Source: Roseofilum reptotaenium CS-1145
Lineage (GTDB): Bacteria > Cyanobacteriota > Cyanobacteriia > Cyanobacteriales > Desertifilaceae
Direction of reading: 5' to 3'
Length of the DNA stretch: 64,000 bases
Assembly: GCF_028330985.1 (NCBI RefSeq)
Contig: NZ_JAQMUE010000068.1
Coordinates: forward strand, 1-64,000
A program made the translations under genes and the position numbers. Each line of letters begins with the position of its first letter. The first letter of the stretch is position 1. The notes beneath the pieces are model-generated. The model saw nothing but the letters and a program-made list of their open reading frames with translations, did not search any database and was not told where the DNA came from. Positions 38,918 to 56,158 of this stretch are shown here, piece by piece.

Positions 38918-39943
38918 ATGAAACTCAAAAAATATAGGCTACTATTGATCGGTGTCTTCTTGTTTACGCTACTGGGTTGTCTGTCCAGTGGAGGAAAAGA
39001 AATGCACGAGTTTAACCCAACAATTCGAGTCCCTGCGGAGTGGGAAACCCATGCAGGTACATGGATGCAATGGCCAAGTGCTTATGAGTCAGAGATGCGC
39101 CCAGAATTTGCCCAGATTATTGATATTATTCAAGATTACGAACCGGTTCACCTGTTGACCAGTAGTGAGGCTGAAAAAAGGAGAGCCAAACAATTTTTGT
39201 TAAAAAAAGGAGTTCCCAATACCCAAATCACTTGGCATATTGTGCCCGTAGATAATGCTTGGTTGCGGGATAATGGGCCCATTTATGTGACGGATGGAAT
39301 CGATCTGTGGATTCAAAATTGGAGATTTGATGCCTGGGGAGGGAACTTTGGCCCAGATATTGAGTACAAAAATGATAATCAAGTTCCCATTTATATTGGA
39401 GAATACTTGGGTTTGCCCATTGAAGATTATCAAGATTATGTGTTAGAAAAAGGCAATTTAGAATTCAATGGCGCAGGGACATTAGTGCTAAATTGGGATT
39501 GTCAGGACGATCGCAATCCTGGAATGACTCAAAGGGAACATGAAACTATTCTCAAGCAAGCTTTTGGGGTTCACACCATTATCTGGGCTTATGGACATCA
39601 CCGAGATGATGGAACCACAGGTCACATTGATGGGATTGCACGGTTTGTTGACCGCAATACCTTGATGGTTGCAGATTACGATCGCTCAAAGACGGAACGG
39701 AATTTAGCAAGAGCAGCTAAAGAAGCAGGATTAGAGGTGGTTCGCTATCCCGGTAATCCGAACTGGTTGGTCGGTAACGGATTTGTCTTAGCAATGGGGG
39801 AAGGAGAGGAGAGGATTGACGCTGCATTAAAATCTGAACTGGAATTTCTCTTTCCCGATCGCCAAATTCACTTGATTCATGCAGAAGCGATCTTCGATTC
39901 AGGAGGCGGTATCCATTGTGTCACCAACGATCAGCCTGCATAA
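38918..39943 (+). CDS. Lipoprotein agmatine deiminase / peptidylarginine-deiminase family
   Basis: 341 residues of the PF04371 family, which hydrolyses agmatine to N-carbamoylputrescine. The N-terminus has a lipobox (FLFTLLGC, Cys21), so the enzyme would be a membrane-anchored lipoprotein, unusual for this normally cytosolic family. Visible active-site blocks are DNAWLRDNGPIYV, GHHRDDGTTGHIDGIARF and the nucleophilic Cys in GGGIHCVTNDQPA near the C-terminus. The WGGNFGPDIEYKND block is the substrate lid region. It is convergent with the cyanobactin protease and not obviously part of that pathway. Extracellular agmatine use is an inference. Confidence 0.88.
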   Translation: MKLKKYRLLLIGVFLFTLLGCLSSGGKEMHEFNPTIRVPAEWETHAGTWMQWPSAYESEMRPEFAQIIDIIQDYEPVHLLTSSEAEKRRAKQFLLKKGVPNTQITWHIVPVDNAWLRDNGPIYVTDGIDLWIQNWRFDAWGGNFGPDIEYKNDNQVPIYIGEYLGLPIEDYQDYVLEKGNLEFNGAGTLVLNWDCQDDRNPGMTQREHETILKQAFGVHTIIWAYGHHRDDGTTGHIDGIARFVDRNTLMVADYDRSKTERNLARAAKEAGLEVVRYPGNPNWLVGNGFVLAMGEGEERIDAALKSELEFLFPDRQIHLIHAEAIFDSGGGIHCVTNDQPA

Positions 39944-39967: not shown

Positions 39968-42025
39968 TTATTTGGAAACAGCCCACGATCGCACTTCTCC
40001 TAAAGTTACCGGAGTGCGATCGCTCACATCAATGGTAAACCGAAACACCCGTTTGGCGCGGCGAGCGTTTTCCGGATCGAAGAACTTTAATTTTACATCC
40101 CAACATTCGCTCCCGTAGCGACAGAAGGGGCTTTTTTCCACATCAATGCTGTGCAGCTCCATGCCGATGGCAACGGCTTCCGAGAAGGTTTGCACCGCTT
40201 GGAAAGCATTGGTAGCAGCGAAATTCAACGCCCTATCTTTTGCCATTTGTCCCAAGTTGCGCAAGTCGTAGTACACTCGATTGAGGAAGCTAGATAAAGT
40301 GCGACGCATAGCTGCTTCATCGGCTGCTTCTTGTTCTGCACTCACGGCTTGCAAGGCAGATTCGACTAATGTATTCACTTTCCAGCCATACATTCCCCTG
40401 GGACTATTCACCTTCAGCACTGGGATAACTTGCCCGGAAAAGAGTCTGACGGTTTCATCGGTTAATGTACCGGGAATACTCACCCGTTCGATATAATCTT
40501 CATCATCTTCGGCTAAAACTTGACCCGCTAGCATATATTGCATCGTTTCATAGATGTCGGCACCAAATGCGCCTACGGGTTTAATCGCATAAATTGGCGT
40601 GAGTTCTATATTTAACGTCCAAATAAGAGATTTACTTTCCGAAAGATTGGTTTCCAGATAATCGACCATTTGCCGGGCATCGTAGGGATTTGCCGGAACT
40701 TGCGTATTTCCAACGACTGCCGCAGGCATAAATTGTTTGAACGTATCCCGGCGTGCTTCTGTACCGAAATCATAGCCCAAGGTTCCCAAAGCATACACTA
40801 GGTTGGAACGTTGACTGGGGGTGACGCTGCTGGGAGAAACTGGGTGGGTTAATCCATTTCCGGTTAAAACAACAGTATTCTCTGGTAAGTTTGGTGTTTC
40901 GTCGTTGGTTTCTGGAGTGGAAAGAGGGGTTTGGGGTAAACTTTCGCTGGGGGTTTCGTTGCTCGGTGCGATCGCATTTTCCGTAGTAGAGATAGTTTCA
41001 CTTTCGGAATTTGCCACTATTGCTTTTTCCGCTAATGGCTCTCCAGTCAACAGTTCGTAAGCCCCAGCAATATTAATTTTTCCCAACAAACAGCGTTCTG
41101 GTTCTTCCACTTCTTCAGGATCGCAGGGAATGGCACTATTGGTTAAAGCAGCTCGTACTGCTTCGGCATCTGGTGCAGCTCCTTTTTCCAGTTGCAAACT
41201 CATTAATAGGGCTGCGGTTCCCGTGACAATAGGAGCGGCACAACTGGTTCCCTTTTTACGAATAGGTTCGTCCGTTCGCGGTTGCGCTCCTAAGATATTT
41301 TCTCCTGGGGCGAGGATGCCTTGACTGGCATATTTCCCGCCAAAGTTACTGAATTTAAACGGTTCTCCCGTGTCTTTCATTGCTCCTACAGTGAGGACAT
41401 TGTCTAAGACTGCTGGCACGCACCAACATTCGCCTTTATCGTTCCCTCCTGGAGCGATGACGAGAATATTATTATCCTGGGCTTGACGAATGGCTTTGTC
41501 GATAAATTCGTGAGCGAGTCCGCTTTGGGTGGGGTGACAAACGGCGCAGTGGATGATGTTGGCTCCCTGCTCGATGGCAGTGCTAATGGCGCGGGACAGG
41601 TTGAGAGGATTAATAAAATCGTCGTTGCTATAAGCGATGGGAATATTAATTACGGTTGCATTTGGGGCAATCCCTTCCACGGGAGAATCCGGTTGTCCGC
41701 AAATGGTACTAATAATATGGTTGGCGTGAAACTGTAAATGCAGGCTGGCGCGGATATTTTTATCGGGGATAGCGGCTACCATCATTTCCCCTTTTTCGTC
41801 CTCGCTTTTGCCGCTACTTTCGATTTCGAGAAAGGATTGAAAATGCTGCGCTTCGATCGCAAATTCTTCTGTCCAATAGGGTTCAAACCGGGTGAGATTT
41901 GCCCCTTGGAAACAGGCGCGTTCTAGGTCTACTTTACCATCGAGAACGGCAATTTTAATGCGACGATCGCCTTGGGTTTGGGAGCGGAGGGCAGAGAGTC
42001 CGGCGATATCGGTTAAATCGGGCAT
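39968..42025 (-). CDS. patG: Cyanobactin macrocyclase, PatG type
   Basis: 685 residues of the PatA/PatG family: an S8 (subtilisin-like) domain (residues 1-330), a linker and a C-terminal cyanobactin-specific domain from about 400 (YALGTLGYDFGTEARRDTF). I call it the macrocyclase because Asp29 and His100 are 71 residues apart and His100 to Ser261 (GTSCAAP) is 161. This is close to the D548/H618/S783 spacing of PatG. The extra, acidic insertion (residues 50-90) would be the capping helices that favour macrocyclisation over hydrolysis. It lacks the PatG N-terminal oxidase domain, as in pathways without heterocycles. Last gene of the cluster; stop 25 bp from the convergent lipoprotein gene. Confidence 0.88.
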   Translation of the reverse strand: MPDLTDIAGLSALRSQTQGDRRIKIAVLDGKVDLERACFQGANLTRFEPYWTEEFAIEAQHFQSFLEIESSGKSEDEKGEMMVAAIPDKNIRASLHLQFHANHIISTICGQPDSPVEGIAPNATVINIPIAYSNDDFINPLNLSRAISTAIEQGANIIHCAVCHPTQSGLAHEFIDKAIRQAQDNNILVIAPGGNDKGECWCVPAVLDNVLTVGAMKDTGEPFKFSNFGGKYASQGILAPGENILGAQPRTDEPIRKKGTSCAAPIVTGTAALLMSLQLEKGAAPDAEAVRAALTNSAIPCDPEEVEEPERCLLGKINIAGAYELLTGEPLAEKAIVANSESETISTTENAIAPSNETPSESLPQTPLSTPETNDETPNLPENTVVLTGNGLTHPVSPSSVTPSQRSNLVYALGTLGYDFGTEARRDTFKQFMPAAVVGNTQVPANPYDARQMVDYLETNLSESKSLIWTLNIELTPIYAIKPVGAFGADIYETMQYMLAGQVLAEDDEDYIERVSIPGTLTDETVRLFSGQVIPVLKVNSPRGMYGWKVNTLVESALQAVSAEQEAADEAAMRRTLSSFLNRVYYDLRNLGQMAKDRALNFAATNAFQAVQTFSEAVAIGMELHSIDVEKSPFCRYGSECWDVKLKFFDPENARRAKRVFRFTIDVSDRTPVTLGEVRSWAVSK

Positions 42026-42077
42026 AGTTTAATGTCTCAATCCTTATCTGGGTTCTGCAACATCTGCATGGTTCTGT

Positions 42078-42293
42078 TTAACACCAAATGCGACCGCGAC
42101 GAAATGGCTTTTCGTTTTTGTCCCGCTTATGGTCTTTAAACATACTTTTCCAGCGACCGTAGTCTTCTAATCCAGTGGCCAGAATATAAGATTGTTCGGG
42201 TTCGCTCGATGGGCTTTGGCTTGCGGTTTCTTCCTTTGTGGTTTTAGCCGCTTTCGCGTTTGCTTTTTTGCGATTTCCTTTGGCTTCTGCCAT
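42078..42293 (-). CDS. patC: Cyanobactin PatC-like small protein
   Basis: 71 residues: a Lys/Ala-rich N-terminus (AEAKGNRKKANAKAAKTTKE), a Ser/Glu linker and a conserved-looking end SYILATGLEDYGRWKSMFKD followed by EKPFRRGRIWC. The size and position between PatB-like and PatG suggest the PatC/TenC/TruC family, whose function in patellamide synthesis is unknown and dispensable. A good AAGGAG ribosome binding site precedes the ATG. The family assignment is by recollection and context. Confidence 0.65.
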   Translation of the reverse strand: MAEAKGNRKKANAKAAKTTKEETASQSPSSEPEQSYILATGLEDYGRWKSMFKDHKRDKNEKPFRRGRIWC

Positions 42294-42352
42294 GATTCAA
42301 CTGCTCCTTAATTATGAGAGAATGCGAGATTGGCGATCGTCTAACGTCCCCA

Positions 42353-42541
42353 TCAAGACATTTTCAGAGTGCTGTAGGGAGGATATTGAAATTGTGCCGG
42401 ATCGTTGTAATTTGCGCCGTGCATTAAGTCCATGCGGATGTGGAGTAAGTCATCACCCCGTCCGTGAATGACATCGACGCATTCATAGATTTTGACAAAG
42501 TGGGGACGTTTGATAGGGGGAGATTGTTTGGGAAGTTTCAT
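42353..42541 (-). CDS. patB: Cyanobactin PatB-like small protein
   Basis: 62 residues: MKLPKQSPPIKRPHFVKIYE, then ECVDVIHGRGDDLLHIRMDL, and a YPPYSTL end. It resembles the PatB/AcyB/McaB family of cyanobactin clusters in length, Pro-rich start and 'IRMDLMHG' helix. The role is unknown. It lies between precursor E1 and the PatC-like gene, with only weak ribosome-binding sequence. Confidence 0.62.
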   Translation of the reverse strand: MKLPKQSPPIKRPHFVKIYECVDVIHGRGDDLLHIRMDLMHGANYNDPAQFQYPPYSTLKMS

Positions 42542-42715
42542 AGTGCCGTTAGGATACTAGTAATTTGTGGTAATGTTCCTTAGATGGTTCTAGCAACTTC
42601 AGGTTCTAGATAGGGGAAATCGTTGGTGCTTTCCCCTGTTCCCTGCCTCTTCTCTCATGGCTGGTGGAAAAAAGAGTTTTAACCTTTTTTGAGGTGAGTG
42701 ATAGGCTTAAGAGAA

Positions 42716-42880
42716 CTACTCAGCATCATCACCTGCAAAAGTCAGGTAAAAACCATCCTCTCTCTCCTGAGGACCAAAAACGAGGGGTGCTACGATCGCA
42801 TTTCCATCACGAGAAACCGTAGCAGCATTTTCGCGCTTCACCGGAGCCACAGTTACCGGAGTCATCTTTTTAGTTTTCAT
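42716..42880 (-). CDS. patE1: Cyanobactin precursor peptide E1
   Basis: A 54-residue ORF, shorter than common ORF cut-offs. The leader MKTKKMTPVTVAPVKREN resembles anacyclamide-type leaders ('..VAPV.RE'). The peptide ends exactly in FAGDDAE, the canonical C-terminal macrocyclase recognition follower of anacyclamide/piricyclamide-type cyanobactins. The core lies between SRDGNAI (residues 23-29) and residue 47: VAPLVFGPQEREDGFYLT. It holds one Tyr (45) for PatF, no Cys, and Thr rather than Pro at the position just before the follower. The start codon was chosen from the shared leader with E2 and the upstream promoter. Confidence 0.9.
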   Translation of the reverse strand: MKTKKMTPVTVAPVKRENAATVSRDGNAIVAPLVFGPQEREDGFYLTFAGDDAE

Positions 42881-42942
42881 AATTCTTTGCCCTTGATATC
42901 AGCAATTTTTCCTGAGACTTAAAACTCAGAGTTATGACTATC

Positions 42943-42971
42943 AAGATATAATCTTCTCTGCATCATGTCAA
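42943..42971 (-). promoter_or_regulatory. Predicted sigma70-type promoter of precursor E1
   Basis: A perfect TTGACA (-35, at 42966-42971) followed after 17 bp by TATCTT (or after 15 bp by TATATC). It is homologous to the promoter of E2 at 47102-47130, and both upstream regions also share AACTAAGTC/ATTAAGTCTT blocks further out. A conserved, duplicated promoter supports E1 as an expressed gene. Confidence 0.6.
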
Positions 42972-43090
42972 CAATATCGCGTTACATTTAATTAAGTCTT
43001 TGGACTGAAATTGTGAAGGGAGCGATCGCACTCTAGAAAAATTGGGAATAGTGCGATCGCATTTTCCATTCTTTCTATCAATATACAAGG

Positions 43091-43561
43091 TTAATCGAGA
43101 TCTTCCTGTAGAGCGTTATCTTCCGGAAAATAATCCATATCTAAAACTTGCTCTTGCGTAAAAGGACAATCAGTCGGAAATGTTTGTTTCGGCAAATTAG
43201 TTTCATTAACCGCAGCGCGCACTGCTTTTGGATAGCATTCTGAGAAAATCTCGGTAAAATAAGGGTTTAAGCTCGGACTATCCTTTAACAGAAGCTCTAA
43301 TTGCTCTCGTTGCTCGTCAATTGTATTTAGCCAGCTATTTGTCCGTTTTTCCGATTGATATTTCCACTTCAGCAAATGCATCAATAGAACTTTTAAGCGA
43401 CTGAACATCTCCCGTTTATTGTTCCGTCCCATATCGGTAACTTCTTCGATTAGGTTTTCTATGTCCAGGCCGTCTAAATCTCCTTTTCTTAAATACGTTA
43501 CAGTTTGCTCGATCCACAAATTAAAATCGGTTTCATAAAGCTGAGAGAGTTTCGCGCTCAT
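43091..43561 (-). CDS. DUF29 family protein inside the cyanobactin cluster
   Basis: 156 residues from ATG 43561, preceded by a strong AAGGAGGAGTCAGA ribosome binding site. The longer frame to 43642 is not credible because it runs into patA. DUF29 marks are LYETDFNLWIEQTVTYLRKG, LDGLDIENLIEEVTDMGRNNKRE, LKVLLMHLLKWKYQSEKRTN and the Leu/Glu-rich C-terminus. DUF29 proteins are abundant in cyanobacteria and uncharacterised. Its insertion between patA and E1 splits the usual A-B-C order. Confidence 0.9.
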   Translation of the reverse strand: MSAKLSQLYETDFNLWIEQTVTYLRKGDLDGLDIENLIEEVTDMGRNNKREMFSRLKVLLMHLLKWKYQSEKRTNSWLNTIDEQREQLELLLKDSPSLNPYFTEIFSECYPKAVRAAVNETNLPKQTFPTDCPFTQEQVLDMDYFPEDNALQEDLD

Positions 43562-43623
43562 TCTGACTCCTCCTTGCTGAGGTTGTGTTAGCCTTGAGGC
43601 TAACACGGGATAGATGGATATCT

Positions 43624-45591
43624 CTAATACGGAGAAGACCAAGAACGAACTTCGCCCAAGGTCACCGGAATTAAATCGCTCACATCAATCGTAAACCGGA
43701 ACACTTTTTTCGCGCGGCGGCTATTTTCTGGGTCGAAGAACTTAAGCTGCACATCCCAACAGTCGCTATCCATGCGACAGAAGGGACTCTTGCTGACATT
43801 AATGCTATCGAGTTCCATGCCCACACCCACGGCTTCCGAGAAGGTTTGCGCCGCTTGAAACGCATTAGTCGCGGCAAAGTTGAGGGCGCGGTCTTGGGAG
43901 GTTTGCCCCAGGTTGCGCAAATCGTAGTAAATGCGGTTGAGGAAGCTGCTCAGGGTGCGGCGCATTTGTCCTTCATCGGCTCCACTTTGTTCGACTCCAA
44001 CTGCTTCTAAGGCAGCACCCACTAAGCTGTTGACGTGCCAACCGTACATTCCGCGAGGACTTTGGGGTTCGATAACCGGAACCACTTGACCGGAGAACAG
44101 GCGCACGGTACGGCCGGTAATGCGTCCGGGGATACTAACGCGCTCGATGTACTCGGCGCTATCTTCCGCTTGCACTTGTCCGGAGAGAAATTCTTGCAGG
44201 ACGCTGTAAACCTCGCGAGAAAAAGAACCGACGGGTTCGATGGCGTAAACTGGGGTTAATTCTAGGTTGAGCGTCCAGATTAAGGATTTTGTTTCCGAGA
44301 GGTTATCGCCCAGGTAATCCACCATTTGCCGAGCATCGTAAGGATTGGCCGGAATCTGAGTATTTTCAATGGTGACAGCGGGCATCAGTTGCTTGAATGT
44401 ATCCCGACGGGCTTCGCTGCCGAAGTCATAGCCGAGGATGCCGATGGCGTAAACGATAGTGTTTGCCGGGGTGGCCGACTGGCTAGGGGTGATGGGGTTG
44501 CTTGGTTCTGGCATAGATTCTCCTGTAATGGTTGTTGATGAAATAGGGTTGGAAGGAGCGACTTCCGCCGCAAGCACTTCGGGAAATTCAGTTTGTTTTT
44601 GAGCTTGAATAGGAGCTTCCTCTGGTTCTGGCGTACCGCCACAGCTACAACCGGAGGCTTCCACCAGTTCTTGAGGTTCTATGGCTTGGGCTTCTAGAGT
44701 TTCAGATGGTTCGGACATCGTTTCTCCTGTTAGGTGTTTGATTGCACCGGGAATGTTTAACAGGCCTGCTAAACATTTCCGGCCATTTTCATCTCCCGCC
44801 AACTCGCAGGGAAGAGCGCTGGCGAGCAGTGCTTCTCGCACAGCTTGGGGGTTAGGGTCTTCTCCCCGTTGCACTTGCAGGCTGAGGAGCAAGGCGGCGA
44901 TTCCGGTAATAATGGGAGCGGCAAAACTGGTACCGCTGAGGGAGAGTGTACCACCGCCTGGTTTGGCTCCTTGAATGCTTTCACCAGGAGCGAGGATGCC
45001 TTGGGTTTGGTAGGTTTCTCCCCAGTTGCTGAAGTCGAGGGGATGGCCTCTAGCATCGGTGGCTCCGACGGCGAGGACGGCGGGGAGAGCGGCAGGGACG
45101 TGGAGGCAGTCGCAGCCGTCGTTTCCAGCAGCAGCAACGATGAGAATGTTCCTGTCGCGGCACATACTGACGGCTCTCTCTAGCCAGTCTTCGGCTTCTC
45201 CGATGTCAGTGAGGGAGCCACCACTAATATTAATCACTTGTGCACCGTTTTCGGCTGCTTGTTCGATGGCGCGGGAAAGGTCAAGTTGGGAGAGTTTGCG
45301 GTTGTCGTCGGCAAAGACGGGAGCGAGGAGTCCGCGACAGTTGGGAGCAATGCCGGGGATGTCGGTGTTAGGTTGGCCGAAAATCAGGCTGGCGATGTGC
45401 GTGCCGTGAGTGGACATTTGTCCGGCAGTGGCTTGGTGCTGGACGAGTGTGGGGAGGCGGCTGAGGGTTGCGCCGTTAAAGCAGGGATGGTTTGTATCGA
45501 TGACTCCATCGAGGATAGCGACGGTAATGTCTGAGTCGCCCTGGGTGCGTTTTTGTAAGTCTGAGAGTCCGGGAATTGTCAGTTGAGACAT
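43624..45591 (-). CDS. patA: Cyanobactin leader protease, PatA type
   Basis: 655 residues; ATG at 45591 preferred over TTG 45597. The S8 domain gives TVAILDGVID (Asp28), STHGTHIASLIFGQP (His62), AAAGNDGC (oxyanion Asn) and SGTSFAAP (Ser222). Asp-His spacing of 34 residues is that of a normal subtilisin, unlike the 71 in the PatG-type gene. The linker SGCSCGG is a Cys-rich segment also present in PatA. The C-terminal domain (YAIGILGYDFGSEARRDTFK) is homologous to that of the PatG-type gene here. PatA removes the leader N-terminal to the core. It follows patF in the same direction. Confidence 0.88.
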   Translation of the reverse strand: MSQLTIPGLSDLQKRTQGDSDITVAILDGVIDTNHPCFNGATLSRLPTLVQHQATAGQMSTHGTHIASLIFGQPNTDIPGIAPNCRGLLAPVFADDNRKLSQLDLSRAIEQAAENGAQVINISGGSLTDIGEAEDWLERAVSMCRDRNILIVAAAGNDGCDCLHVPAALPAVLAVGATDARGHPLDFSNWGETYQTQGILAPGESIQGAKPGGGTLSLSGTSFAAPIITGIAALLLSLQVQRGEDPNPQAVREALLASALPCELAGDENGRKCLAGLLNIPGAIKHLTGETMSEPSETLEAQAIEPQELVEASGCSCGGTPEPEEAPIQAQKQTEFPEVLAAEVAPSNPISSTTITGESMPEPSNPITPSQSATPANTIVYAIGILGYDFGSEARRDTFKQLMPAVTIENTQIPANPYDARQMVDYLGDNLSETKSLIWTLNLELTPVYAIEPVGSFSREVYSVLQEFLSGQVQAEDSAEYIERVSIPGRITGRTVRLFSGQVVPVIEPQSPRGMYGWHVNSLVGAALEAVGVEQSGADEGQMRRTLSSFLNRIYYDLRNLGQTSQDRALNFAATNAFQAAQTFSEAVGVGMELDSINVSKSPFCRMDSDCWDVQLKFFDPENSRRAKKVFRFTIDVSDLIPVTLGEVRSWSSPY

Positions 45592-45807
45592 TATCAATAA
45601 GGGTAAGTTATGCTTATTCGCTTACATTTTTTATGGGACGAGTTAATGATTACGTAGGCACTTTCTGTGAGATTTCATTAAGCATGGGGGGCAGAAGTTT
45701 GGAGTGTTATCTCGATGACAAAACGAAGAAGGCGATCGGTTTTCTTCCCTTTCCCCCGTGCCAGGTAAGGGGAAACCGAGAACTCACAACGGTTGTAATC
45801 TTATGGT

Positions 45808-46685
45808 CTAACTGTATGTTGTCTCACTGATGAAAGCTTGGCTGTAATAGAGGTTGATGTTTTGAATTCGTCCAGCTATTAGTTCAGATTCGGATAATGC
45901 GACCCACATTTTTTCGATCCCTCTTGTTGCAGACAAAAATCATGGACTCGATGGGCTGTATCGTTGACGGGGAAGTAACTGAGAAAATCTCGAATATCTT
46001 CTATGTGGTAGTACAGAACGTTGGCTTCGTTAGCCCGACTGAAACCGATTCCCATCAGGTTAGGGATAGCTAAGGGTTTGAGAGCGGTTGGGTAAAGGAT
46101 TTCTTCTAGGGTTTGACGAGTTTTAGGCTGATTAAATTCCTCTTTTGTCACTTCAGGATAAAGTTCAATGGCACTGCGACCATCTACATTAAAATCGAAT
46201 CCGATGTGCAAAGTATCGGAACGGAGCAGTTTTTGCAGTTCCGGACTCTCTCCACACAGTTGTTGGGCGAGGGAATTTTTTTCGGGATAGTCGCCAATGC
46301 GAATAAAGACTTTTAAACGGGACTCGGGGAGTTCGTGGCGCAAATCGACTCCGGCTAAAATCGTTTGGACTTTGCTAACATCAAAGTCGTTGCCCAAAAA
46401 TTGGTGCAGCAGTTCGTAGTTGAGGTTGACATTAACTCTAGCTTCCACTGTTTTGAAGAAATTGAGGGCAGCGTTGAGATTCTCGATAGGTTTGTGGTCT
46501 GAGAATTGTAGGTCGAAACGAGCCGGATAGAGTTGGTCTTGTTTCATTTTTCCCGAACATTCGATGAGACAGTTCCCAGTTGTTGTAACGAACTGCTCGA
46601 AAAGCTCTAGGGGATAAAGGTTATCTATATCAAATGCATTTTTGTGTGTGCCAATGTAGTAAAGTCTGTCATCAACTGGAGTCAT
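45808..46685 (-). pseudogene. patF: Cyanobactin prenyltransferase PatF type, frameshifted at A6 run
   Basis: The first frame (ATG 46685) gives 268 residues with TLHIGFDFNVDGRSAIELYP and LYYHIEDIRDFLSYFPVND, the PatF/LynF/TruF pattern of an ABBA-like dimethylallyl transferase that prenylates Tyr, Trp or Ser/Thr of cyanobactins. It stops at 45879 after GSKKCGSHYP. The family C-terminus appears instead in the next frame: MWVALSESELIAGRIQNINL, YYSQAF and a stop at 45808-45810, matching the 'ESELE..RLEN..FYY' end of PatF. One extra A in the A6 run (45909-45914 as T) would restore a 292-residue protein. It could be a real frameshift, a sequencing error or transcriptional slippage. Confidence 0.85.
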
Positions 46686-46855
46686 TAACTTTCACTTTTC
46701 TTTTACGATTTCAGTAACTACGGCAGTTATGAACGGTTAACTCAGGAGGCTCCCTTTTTCCCCCACCTCCCCCGTTTTTGTCCTTTCTCCTTGGGGGGGG
46801 TGAGGGTTCCCACCCAGGTTAGGATTTAGGGTTGTGTAAACCTGCAAACGCTGGG

Positions 46856-47026
46856 TTATGCAAATCTCCCGTATGGCCGATTCCAATCATCGTATCCAAA
46901 TCTACTTGTACTTCCGATTCCCATAGGTCCCAGGGGTGCGATCGCGTTCCCATCACGAGAAACAGTAGCCACATTTTCACGCTTCACAGGAGCCACAGTT
47001 ACTGGAGTCAGTTTTTTCGTCTTCAT
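46856..47026 (-). CDS. patE2: Cyanobactin precursor peptide E2
   Basis: 56 residues from ATG 47026. The leader MKTKKLTPVTVAPVKRENVA differs from E1 at only two of the first 29 residues (Leu6, Val19). The core region after GNAI is unlike E1: PLGPMGIGSTSRFGYDDWNR with PYGR after it. It ends in FA and a TAA stop, as if the FAGDDAE follower were cut to its first two residues. It contains Tyr45, Trp48 and Tyr52 as prenyl acceptors. It is the first gene of the cluster; a longer frame to 47041 uses a TTG with no support. It may be inactive, or processed differently. Confidence 0.8.
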   Translation of the reverse strand: MKTKKLTPVTVAPVKRENVATVSRDGNAIAPLGPMGIGSTSRFGYDDWNRPYGRFA

Positions 47027-47101
47027 GATGCATGACCTCATTAAATTGATTGACAGTTTTTCGGAGACTTTGACTTAGTTCTCCGGTTTCTTGATTTGTG
47101 A

Positions 47102-47130
47102 ATGGTAATCTTCTCCTCTGCCCATGTCAA
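47102..47130 (-). promoter_or_regulatory. Predicted sigma70-type promoter of precursor E2
   Basis: TTGACA at 47125-47130, 17-bp spacer, TACCAT at 47102-47107. The spacer sequence GGGCAGAGGAGAAGAT parallels GATGCAGAGAAGAT in the E1 promoter, so the two control regions arose by duplication. Confidence 0.6.
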
Positions 47131-47325
47131 TAGCTTTAGGTAACGTTTGATTAAGTCTTGGCATCGAAAGAGTTGGGGGCGATCTCACTGGGGAAATGAG
47201 GGAGGGGTGCGATCGCACCTGGCGATCCTTCCCCTCTGCTCCCTCCCTCCTTGCACCCTTGCCTCAACGGGGCGATCGCTCAAAATTATCTGTTAAAATT
47301 TTGATAGGTTTAGGGAGATAAAACC

Positions 47326-52605: not shown

Positions 52606-52899
52606 GGTAACAGAGAATCGGGGAATACTGTTTAACTGGACATGCTATAGCAGTGAAAGAGTTGATTAGGACAGTGAGGTTATGGTTTGAGGCACTCTAG
52701 CAATAGGCTTGCTTTGCAATAGCTTGTATGGCTTAGGTTCTAAGGCTTCAAGCTATTCCCTATTCCCTATTCCCTAGCGCGAAGCGCTATAGAGTTTTCA
52801 TCGCTTTAACTAACTCCTGGAATTACGATGTTATTTCAAACCATAAGCTTGCCCTCTCCCTATATGTCTTTCCCGTGGGAGAGGGAATTTTCCCCATTT
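52606..52899. other. Repeat-containing intergenic region
   Basis: Contains three head-to-tail ATTCCCT units (52753-52776, an inverted GGGAATA STRR) followed by GCGCGAAGCGC, and TAATTTTTAATTGAT blocks near 52895. No gene seen. Confidence 0.6.
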
Positions 52900-54393: not shown

Positions 54394-55412
54394 GGATACA
54401 CCGCTACAATTGCGTCGATCGATGACAAGGGTTGAATGTTAACCAGTTCAAAGCCTGCGCTCTCGAGTAAAGAGGCAAACTCGAATTGAGTCCGTTCTCC
54501 GGGGCCCCCACTTGCTCCTGGTGCGCCATGTACCAACAACATCTGCAAGTTTTTGATGCCAATATAGGGGTTGCGGACTTGGTCATCTTCAATTAGTTCA
54601 AAAATGTATAGCTTGTTGCCAGCGTGCATGGCTTGCCTGACATGGGTGAGAATCGTGAGTGCCTGTTCATCAGAATAGGAATGCAAAATGCGTTTTAGGA
54701 TGCCATCCCCCGGAATATCGGGCAATGTAACCTGCATATCAACTCCGATCGCCTGCAAGCGCGGTCGAACAGAGACACGAGCGATCGTGTCGGGAACATC
54801 AAACAGTTGCCCCTGAATACCTTCGTACTTTTCTAAAATTCCGGTAATGAGCGCCCCATTTCCCCCGGCAATTTCAGCAATCTGTTGGGATTGAGAAAAG
54901 TCAAACCCTTGCAAAATATCCCGAATTTCGACCCGCGACATCGATTCCATCGCGCGATCGAAAGCGGCGGCTAAATCCTGATGTTCTCGTAGGTAATCGT
55001 AGAAGAGGCGATCGCGCCCAAGCTGATAAATACTTTTGCCCGTTTGTAATAGTTCTTTCCACAGAGTACGTCGTTGTTCATGTTTTCTGGACTGGGCTAA
55101 CTGACAGAAGTGATGCCAGGGTCTAAGGGAAAATTCTGAGTTCAGGACTAAATGTTGTGAAACGTCGGTCAGAGAAACCATAGACCGAGAAGGATTAGCA
55201 TCCGGTTCGAGCGCGAATAAGTCAAAATGAGCGAGTCCCCGCAAACAACGATGGAGCGATCGCTGATGAGTGCCGCTTCGCTCCGCTAACTCTGATACAG
55301 ATAAAGAATGGGTGGCAAGATGATCGAATACCCCAAGGCTAATACAGGCCTCCGTAAAGTGGGAGACAATGCGATAGTCTAAAAGGCAAAACATTTGTTG
55401 ATAAGGAATCAT
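54390..55412 (-). CDS. O-methyltransferase, plant-COMT-like family
   Basis: 340 residues. A SAM-dependent enzyme with an N-terminal winged-helix dimerisation part (YRIVSHFTEACISLGVFDHL, LSVSELAERSGTHQRSLHRC) and a Rossmann part with the motif QIAEIAGGNGALITGILEKY, a strand QGQLFDVPDT and KRILHSYSDEQALTIL, where His is the catalytic base of COMT-like enzymes. It is the last gene of the DpgA operon, so it probably methylates phenolic hydroxyls of the polyketide product. The acceptor is inferred from context only. Confidence 0.9.
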   Translation of the reverse strand: MIPYQQMFCLLDYRIVSHFTEACISLGVFDHLATHSLSVSELAERSGTHQRSLHRCLRGLAHFDLFALEPDANPSRSMVSLTDVSQHLVLNSEFSLRPWHHFCQLAQSRKHEQRRTLWKELLQTGKSIYQLGRDRLFYDYLREHQDLAAAFDRAMESMSRVEIRDILQGFDFSQSQQIAEIAGGNGALITGILEKYEGIQGQLFDVPDTIARVSVRPRLQAIGVDMQVTLPDIPGDGILKRILHSYSDEQALTILTHVRQAMHAGNKLYIFELIEDDQVRNPYIGIKNLQMLLVHGAPGASGGPGERTQFEFASLLESAGFELVNIQPLSSIDAIVAVYP

Positions 55413-55430
55413 AAATTATAGCGCTGCGCG

Positions 55431-55456
55431 CTAGGGAATAGGGAATGGGGAATAGG
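55431..55456. repeat. STRR GGGAATA-type array within operon
   Basis: TAGGGAATAGGGAATGGGGAATAGG between dpgB and the O-methyltransferase gene; a short tandem repeat expanding the intergenic gap of an otherwise tightly packed operon. Confidence 0.75.
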
Positions 55457-56158
55457 TTATGTTCTGTCTGACAATTGAGACAGGCATAGATCCTGTACAG
55501 CTAAATAATGTCCGATCGCATCTTCATAAGACGTGGCAAAAGATTCATTGAGGAGTCTACGGGTATTTTGTAATACTTGAGGGTGAATGGGCATCAACGC
55601 CTGCTGAACCTCTTCAATGGTCTGTTCCAATGCAGTCGTTTCACAGGCGAGATCGACAATTCCCAGTGCGATCGCCTCTTCAACAGAAAATTGAGCGCCA
55701 GTAAACAACAAGCGACGAGCAACGCCAATTCCAGTATATTTTGCCAATCGGAACACTCCCATTCCCGGTAAATACCCTTCTTTAACTTCTGGCATTTGAA
55801 AGAGCGATCGCGCCGTCGAGACTCGATAATCGCAAGCAAGAGCAAGTTGAAAGTAAAACCGGGTACAATAGCCATCGATCGCCGCGATGGATGCCCCCGC
55901 AAATCCTTCTAGTCGCCGGAGAACTTTTTCCCATTTGCTACAATCGTCAAATGCAGGTGGTATTGCGATCTGAGATTGCTGAGTATTCAATCCCCAAAAT
56001 ATGATGAGTTGACAAGTCTCGTCATCTTCGAGATCGTTCATTAATACGATCAATTCTGACAAGCAGACTGCATTCAATTGACTTGGATCTGACCATTGCA
56101 AGTTTATATGGGCGATCGTTTCCAGTTTAGTGAGTTTTAATGTGGTGTATTGTGTCAT
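55457..56158 (-). CDS. dpgB: Crotonase-fold DpgB-type protein
   Basis: 233 residues. FDDCSKWEKVLRRLEGFAGA and SIAAIDGYCTRFYFQLALAC, then DYRVSTARSLFQMPEVKEGY match DpgB, the dehydratase-associated partner that raises DpgA output in vancomycin-type dihydroxyphenylglycine synthesis. The crotonase oxyanion segment is degenerate (YCTRFYFQLAL), as in DpgB. The start ATG is 3 bp after the dpgA stop (TAAGGAATG), so the two are translationally coupled. It may be a helper rather than a full hydratase. Confidence 0.82.
   Translation of the reverse strand: MTQYTTLKLTKLETIAHINLQWSDPSQLNAVCLSELIVLMNDLEDDETCQLIIFWGLNTQQSQIAIPPAFDDCSKWEKVLRRLEGFAGASIAAIDGYCTRFYFQLALACDYRVSTARSLFQMPEVKEGYLPGMGVFRLAKYTGIGVARRLLFTGAQFSVEEAIALGIVDLACETTALEQTIEEVQQALMPIHPQVLQNTRRLLNESFATSYEDAIGHYLAVQDLCLSQLSDRT

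Follow-up and report, generated by a model that had tools for sequence, protein, structure and literature searches.

The stretch analyzed here, referred to as the window, comprises 64,000 nucleotides of Roseofilum reptotaenium CS-1145 (contig NZ_JAQMUE010000068.1, positions 1 to 64,000 of the forward strand) and harbors a cyanobactin biosynthetic cluster on its minus strand. A preliminary description made from the letters alone had assigned eight minus-strand elements to such a pathway, and all eight were found where it had placed them. In the direction of transcription they run E2, F, PatA, DUF29, E1, PatB, PatC and PatG, where E1 and E2 are precursors and F is a prenyltransferase; seven of them exceed the NCBIfam cut-off of a cyanobactin family, and the eighth is the DUF29 gene (PF01724). 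Departures from the family pattern in F, E2 and E1 suggest that the cluster is probably eroding. Its features are listed below by window coordinates.

39968-42025, minus strand: PatG-type macrocyclase protease, 685 aa, intact, no oxidase domain (TIGR03895, 862 bits)
42078-42293, minus strand: PatC-type small protein, 71 aa (TIGR04447, 59 bits; cut-off 30)
42353-42541, minus strand: PatB-type small protein, 62 aa (TIGR04220, 114 bits; cut-off 55)
42716-42880, minus strand: precursor E1 (TIGR04446, 64 bits; cut-off 35)
42943-42971, minus strand: promoter-like site 5' of E1, TTGACA-17-TATCTT, a weak consensus match only
43091-43567, minus strand: DUF29 gene, whose open frame reaches further upstream (PF01724, 192 bits)
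43624-45591, minus strand: PatA-type leader protease, 655 aa, intact (TIGR03895, 915 bits)
45808-45909, minus strand: out-of-frame remainder of F, MWVALSESELIAGRIQNINLYYSQAFISETTYS, a segment that is in frame in LimF and in locus L033
45879-46685, minus strand: PatF-type prenyltransferase F, LimF branch (TIGR04445, 286 bits; cut-off 140)
45909-45914, minus strand: A6 run at the F frameshift, read from the sequence
46819-46860, minus strand: degenerate out-of-frame follower 3' of E2, in a frame that reads ...HNPAFAGLHNPKS
46856-47026, minus strand: precursor E2 (TIGR04446, 51.5 bits; cut-off 35)
47102-47130, minus strand: promoter-like site 5' of E2, TTGACA-17-TACCAT, a weak consensus match only
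39986-39995, no strand: left 10-bp repeat CGATCGCACT, a breakpoint of the loss in the congener G076
47180-47189, no strand: right 10-bp repeat CGATCTCACT, the second breakpoint of that loss

The locus holds the elements by which we recognize a cyanobactin cluster, namely a PatA-type protease, a PatG-type protease with the macrocyclization insert, PatB and PatC genes and, in E1, a precursor with both leader and follower. Both precursors match the anacyclamide/piricyclamide model TIGR04446 and both proteases exceed the TIGR03895 cut-off of 421 bits, so the homology on which the preliminary description depended is borne out by profile searches; in Pfam PF19158, E1 and E2 fall slightly below the cut-off of 25 (21.7 and 23.9). 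PatG aligned to the PatG macrocyclase structures (PDB 4h6x and 4aks, best E 9e-103) through the insert between Asp and His, and PatA aligned to PDB 4h6w with an E value of 2e-127. The absence of a PatD heterocyclase and of a PatG oxidase domain, also noted from the letters, was upheld: no YcaO/PatD match was obtained across the organism's own draft genome (113 contigs, 98.95% complete), and the domains of PatG are S8, PatG_D and PatG_C, with no oxidase domain. On this count the cluster is of the anacyclamide/piricyclamide type; the Pro-ending core before the follower expected of that type was not found, as E1 has Thr and E2 has no follower. Little weight is given to the promoter-like TTGACA sites 5' of both E genes, because the region contains three such sites against 7.9 expected by chance.

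The prenyltransferase F matches TIGR04445 across model positions 2-256 of 282, and its closest solved relative is LimF (PDB 7vmw, E 5e-110; Foldseek identity 63%). In a tree from which two of the 25 fetched F rows (L056 and L057, both incomplete) were excluded by a length filter, the window F formed one clade with LimF of Limnothrix CACIAM 69d (locus L034) and with the Pseudanabaena protein of locus L033, with support 100/99. However, the complete frame of a LimF-type enzyme, including the Trp273 segment, is not present. At about residue 259 the frame departs from the family and ends in nine unrelated residues, ...QQEGSKKCGSHYPNLN, with a loss of the last ~33 residues, and the other frame continues with a segment matching LimF (...EGSRRMWVALSESEMKAGRINNVNLYYSKAF) and L033. 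The one-base frameshift sits at the A6 run, 45914-45909. The lost C terminus is kept in all 10 other F proteins of alignment A1 and by alignment includes LimF Trp273, a residue that probably lines the donor pocket; the title of PDB 8je4 names a LimF mutant H239G/W273T. An AlphaFold2 model of the window F gave a mean predicted local distance difference test score of 81.5, and residues 257-268 were the sole stretch below 50. Because F is truncated by the frameshift, it is most likely inactive and prenylation most likely lost. For LimF, geranylation is described at C2 of His and, in addition, at the Tyr phenolic oxygen (PMC11002830; this and the other papers cited here are drawn on in excerpt). 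No His acceptor occurs in the E1 core or the in-frame E2 core, so a cognate His as expected of a LimF-type pair is missing; His is present in the limE core and in a core, ALSHHIATMWGTP, of the sister cluster in the congener G093. Across the order, 43 of the 291 genomes searched contain a PatF-type gene. As a separate observation, the L033 locus (L033:7154-8811, Pseudanabaena sp. UBA1465) shows six tandem precursors 5' of its LimF-branch prenyltransferase, three of which carry His in the core (HFIWEQHGVFP, LTAHRSLGQQSP and AHYGIDNRGIMIP).

The precursor E2 retains a complete leader, and its frame ends ...NAIAPLGPMGIGSTSRFGYDDWNRPYGRFA (core ...DDWNRPYGRFA) with no in-frame FAGD follower; the match to TIGR04446 spans only model positions 1-36 of 51. 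A degenerate follower is visible in the +1 frame 3' of the gene. The core contains an imperfect internal duplication of ~32 bp, with a local self-alignment score of 15 against a maximum of 9 in 100 dinucleotide shuffles; Tandem Repeats Finder made no call of it. A search of the organism's own genome for a second copy of the E2 core DNA matched only the locus itself, and RNA folding just 3' of E2 and of three precursors gave no clear gain in stability over shuffled sequences (z -0.3 to -1.3). Because the follower is lost, the E2 core would at best be cut out in linear form.

The precursor E1 consists of a leader MKTKKMTPVTVAPVKRENAATVSRDGNAIVAP, a putative core LVFGPQEREDGFYLT with a presumed start, and the follower FAGDDAE, confirmed as its ending; the residue preceding the follower (position P1) is Thr. 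Among 37 distinct precursors with both leader and follower, P1 is Pro in 36 and Thr in E1 alone. This count, which required the leader motif and a FAGD-type follower and thereby leaves E2 and precursors with other followers outside by construction, was drawn from loci fetched by F, PirE or PatA/PatG searches, and its rows are not independent, as several precursors may come from one locus and some have a common core. A wider set of 45 strings (43 Pro, two Thr) was reduced to the 37 by dropping leaderless and edge-cut strings; in the second Thr string, from Snowella (L054), a stop separates the upstream part from the follower. According to PMC10043927, the macrocyclase domain PatGmac needs Pro or thiazoline at P1, and PMC4663559 gives a single conserved C-terminal Pro as a feature of anacyclamides. 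Because of the Thr at P1, E1 would be expected to be cyclized poorly or to be released as a linear, unprenylated peptide; since no PatD was found, this Thr should not become an oxazoline. The HIP1 palindrome GCGATCGC at the leader/core boundary was considered as a recombination site and dropped, as it is exact in just a few precursors.

Six genomes of the genus were compared, including that of the window, and the five congeners are called G034, G057, G076, G093 and G127. The nearest is G076, with synonymous divergence (dS) from the window of 0.12 in clpB and 0.09 in moaA; the clpB values of the other congeners are at least 0.44. The cluster is absent from G076, where the sequence up to window position 39995 is joined to that after 47189 and 7,194 bp (7.19 kb) between the 10-bp repeats are missing. 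Of the last 28 bases of patG, 26 are kept at this junction, which implies, on sequence grounds, that the cluster already occupied this site in the common ancestor. G076 also lacks most of the neighboring PAD_porph and Uma2 genes, as well as a few dozen bases around 47215-47256, and its PAD region instead carries ~1 kb of unmatched sequence. At the homologous site only a PAD_porph scrap was found in G127, and nothing of the cluster in G034 or G057. No F was found in any of the five congeners, and proteases of the PatA/PatG family over the cut-off number one each in G034, G076 and G127, at an unrelated locus, and none in G057.

A sister cluster is present in G093 (L102), with identities to the window of 92% for PatG, 87% for PatA, 94% for PatB, 87% for PatC and, at the amino-acid level by tblastn, 93% for DUF29. 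It harbors two Pro-ending precursors, one with the core ALSHHIATMWGTP before FAGDEAE and the other with a core ...YYFNP before FAGDDAE; F is missing, and a different small open reading frame (ORF) lies in its place. The GTS (GTSCAAP) and HANH motifs of the window PatG are the same as those of this sister PatG, which serves Pro-ending precursors. The sister cluster lies on a different contig from clpB, beside genes that, judged by eye, we take to be ribosomal protein genes. Near it, a leader-only remnant (SIAPVQRENAVTVSRDGNAMLE, then a stop) at L102:13333-13422 was noticed as another decayed precursor.

The divergence between the window and G093 differs along the genome. The dS of clpB is 1.49, near saturation, and the values in the cluster are 0.45 for PatA, 0.41 for PatG, 0.42 for PatB, 0.30 for PatC and 0.12 for DUF29. 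The four main cluster blocks share 85-95% identity and the E1 region 71%; the 12 kb beyond clpB gave scattered matches only, the six longest at 68-81% identity. As the cluster is closer in dS and identity than clpB and the flanks, it looks younger than the split of the genomes, at a different site in G093, and it was probably acquired by horizontal exchange, a reading of event and direction made from these sequence comparisons. Plasmid records held only distant PatG relatives, with a best identity of 48%.

Taken together, these findings lead us to favor, with a probability of about 75%, a recently acquired and now eroding cluster of the anacyclamide/piricyclamide type, with an F of the LimF branch. 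In an intact pathway, the PatA-type protease would remove the leader, the PatG-type protease would swap the FAGDDAE follower for a ring-closing peptide bond at Pro-FAGD, and F, by analogy with LimF, would add geranyl to His or Tyr. Here E1 probably still loses its leader, its Thr makes ring closure doubtful, E2 would offer no PatG signal and F is truncated; loss of enzyme activity and poor cyclization are what we infer. Several observations weigh against this interpretation. Relaxed evolution of PatA and PatG was tested and not found: derived replacements in the window and the sister were 18 and 16 for PatA and 11 and 13 for PatG, and pairwise dN/dS (nonsynonymous to synonymous divergence) is 0.13 for PatA and 0.09 for PatG. 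E1 retains a complete leader and follower. The break in F may come from one wrong base in the A6 run, and F itself lies outside the 14,164 bases compared with G076 below. For the horizontal exchange, the basis is a single, nearly saturated dS marker together with flank identities of 68-81%, and in some of the cluster, the E1 region for example, similarity does not exceed that of the flanks. Because PatA and PatG show no relaxed evolution, either the cluster was damaged recently or it still makes a residual unprenylated product, which is possible; the same observation counts against a long-dead cluster.

Among the alternatives, the best placed is a locus that is alive and unprenylated, in which PatA and PatG mature E1 to a peptide that is linear or closed into a ring at Thr, and F and E2 are dispensable relics. 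The balanced replacements of PatA and PatG against the sister lineage, the completeness of E1, the two complete precursors that the G093 cluster keeps without F, and trichamide, a published cluster without F (PMC4663559), all agree with it. We nevertheless consider it unlikely, since PatGmac is described as needing thiazoline or Pro at P1 (PMC10043927), no other of the 37 precursors has Thr there, the window PatG shares its motifs with a sister enzyme of Pro-ending precursors, and F is reported to be essential even for the non-prenylated patellamides (PMC4663559). Next in rank, and a doubtful proposal in our view, is a switch of product and not the death of the cluster, in which the constrained PatA/PatG pair would still mature E1 into a linear Thr-ended or a Thr-closed cyclic, unprenylated peptide. 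If so, PatG here would be a macrocyclase or hydrolase no longer bound by the Pro/heterocycle rule.

A third alternative attributes the F frameshift to a mistake of sequencing or assembly at the A6 run, with active LimF-type geranylation of E1 at Tyr. It is favored by a one-base event in a homopolymer and by the well-conserved downstream frame. In the 14,164 window bases (ORFs of at least 150 aa) aligned to G076, however, no clean one-base shift was found; of the eight gaps in all aligned sequence, one was not a multiple of three, at a poorly aligned spot with two gaps nearby. Moreover, E2 and E1 are abnormal independently of F and the sister cluster is without any F, and we regard such an error as improbable.

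The multi-product locus of the preliminary description, in which E1 and E2 would each give a possibly prenylated macrocycle, has to its credit that all pathway genes are present, that the proteases are intact and constrained, and that multi-precursor clusters without PatD exist (PMC3428304), as do the six precursors of L033. This proposal did not hold up against the frameshift in F, the missing in-frame follower of E2, the Thr at P1 of E1 and the loss of the locus in the nearest congener, and we now judge it very improbable; the broken F frame near its 3' end, the out-of-frame follower of E2 and the missing Pro in E1 had gone unnoticed in that description. Finally, transcriptional or -1 ribosomal slippage on the A6 run could yield some full-length F and leave prenylation low but not lost, since a -1 step at AAA AAA enters the ATG TGG frame directly, yet LimF and L033 read through in a single frame and six A form a short run for slippage, which makes this hardly credible.

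The eroding cluster bears on the patchy spread of cyanobactin genes, as the genus shows how such patchiness can arise: a productive-looking cluster in G093, broken tailoring and templates in the window, and a 28-nt patG remnant in G076. The divergence values suggest a move of the cluster that postdates the split of the genomes. The case also warns that gene content alone should not be used to predict two prenylated macrocycles. Should E1 still undergo processing, a natural enzyme-substrate pair would be at hand to test the Pro/heterocycle rule of PatG macrocyclases.

Other observations were made around the cluster and elsewhere in the genus. Beside the cluster, a PAD_porph/agmatine deiminase-like gene (window 38918-39943, plus strand) that by eye looks signal-peptide bearing is left as scraps in G076 and G127, and the five congeners give only distant (~33-35% identical) or partial matches to it. 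Short sequences at window ~52640-52800 and ~55406-55461 (plus strand) occur as many repeats in G076 and few in G093, on both strands.

Outside the window, G127, G076 and G034 harbor a lone PatA-type protease beside an LCM methyltransferase (PF04072 in the copy scanned), at L103 (G127:C120:1-12000), L104 (G076:C131:4000-18000) and L105 (G034:C105:60000-76000), with precursors in L141-L162. These precursors read M..PKQ.APVER...GVEAS (in one case TVEAS) and then continue for 22-29 residues, and the same loci contain a gene weakly similar to PatB and a short two-Cys peptide (PVVRNLN...CYKLPGLARSMCMAAY). In these three genomes neither a second PatA/PatG protease over the cut-off nor a prenyltransferase was found. 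GVEAS fits the PatA cleavage consensus G(L/V)E(A/P)S (PMC10885120). Within the order, a model built from three of the precursor sequences matched 12 of 291 genomes at E <=0.01, with a doubtful weakest match; the fetched flanks of those 12 contained the protease in 10 and the methyltransferase in eight. One weak match, L151, has FAGSDAE at its end and resembles an ordinary cyanobactin precursor. Of 15 hand-picked predicted products (21-42 aa), 11 have a hydrophobic moment that no more than 27 of 1000 shuffles attained and four do not, and as a set they lay above all 1000 shuffled sets. On the basis of these sequences, a separate family of ribosomally synthesized and post-translationally modified peptides is possible, a linear-peptide relative of the cyanobactins with a mostly amphipathic tail. 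A single literature search combining GVEAS and cyanobacteria gave no paper.

No report that could be linked to the window locus was found in the open-access papers searched, and stepwise loss within one genus, a patG remnant and a natural P1-Thr precursor were not met in the excerpts of cyanobactin literature examined. The arrangement itself, with several precursors and no PatD, is already described for the piricyclamides, whose published clusters carry one to four precursors, no PatD and no oxidase (PMC3428304). The pir cluster as excerpted resembles the window in its gene set A, B, C, E, F and G without PatD or oxidase, in precursors that differ mainly in the core, and in the FAGD follower. 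The same source describes an inactive copy in Microcystis aeruginosa NIES843, with a frameshift in pirG and a cluster broken by insertion sequences, and frameshifted precursor genes in other strains; unlike that copy, the window has its damage in F, E2 and the P1 residue of E1, with A and G intact, and its nearest congener is without the whole locus. The acy clusters share with the window the absence of acyD and of an oxidase domain and a hypervariable core, as described in PMC4663559, and the window precursors match TIGR04446; the conserved C-terminal Pro of anacyclamides in that description is replaced by Thr in E1. The lim cluster of Limnothrix sp. CACIAM 69d (PMC6256058 and PMC11002830, in excerpt) shows the same order F-A-B-C-G, identities to the window of 64% for F, 78% for A and 73% for G, and an F in the same clade. 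It differs in that the limE core HKYSLQGFGVMIP ends in Pro and contains His, whereas the window has a frameshifted F, no in-frame core His, an additional precursor and a DUF29 gene between A and B.

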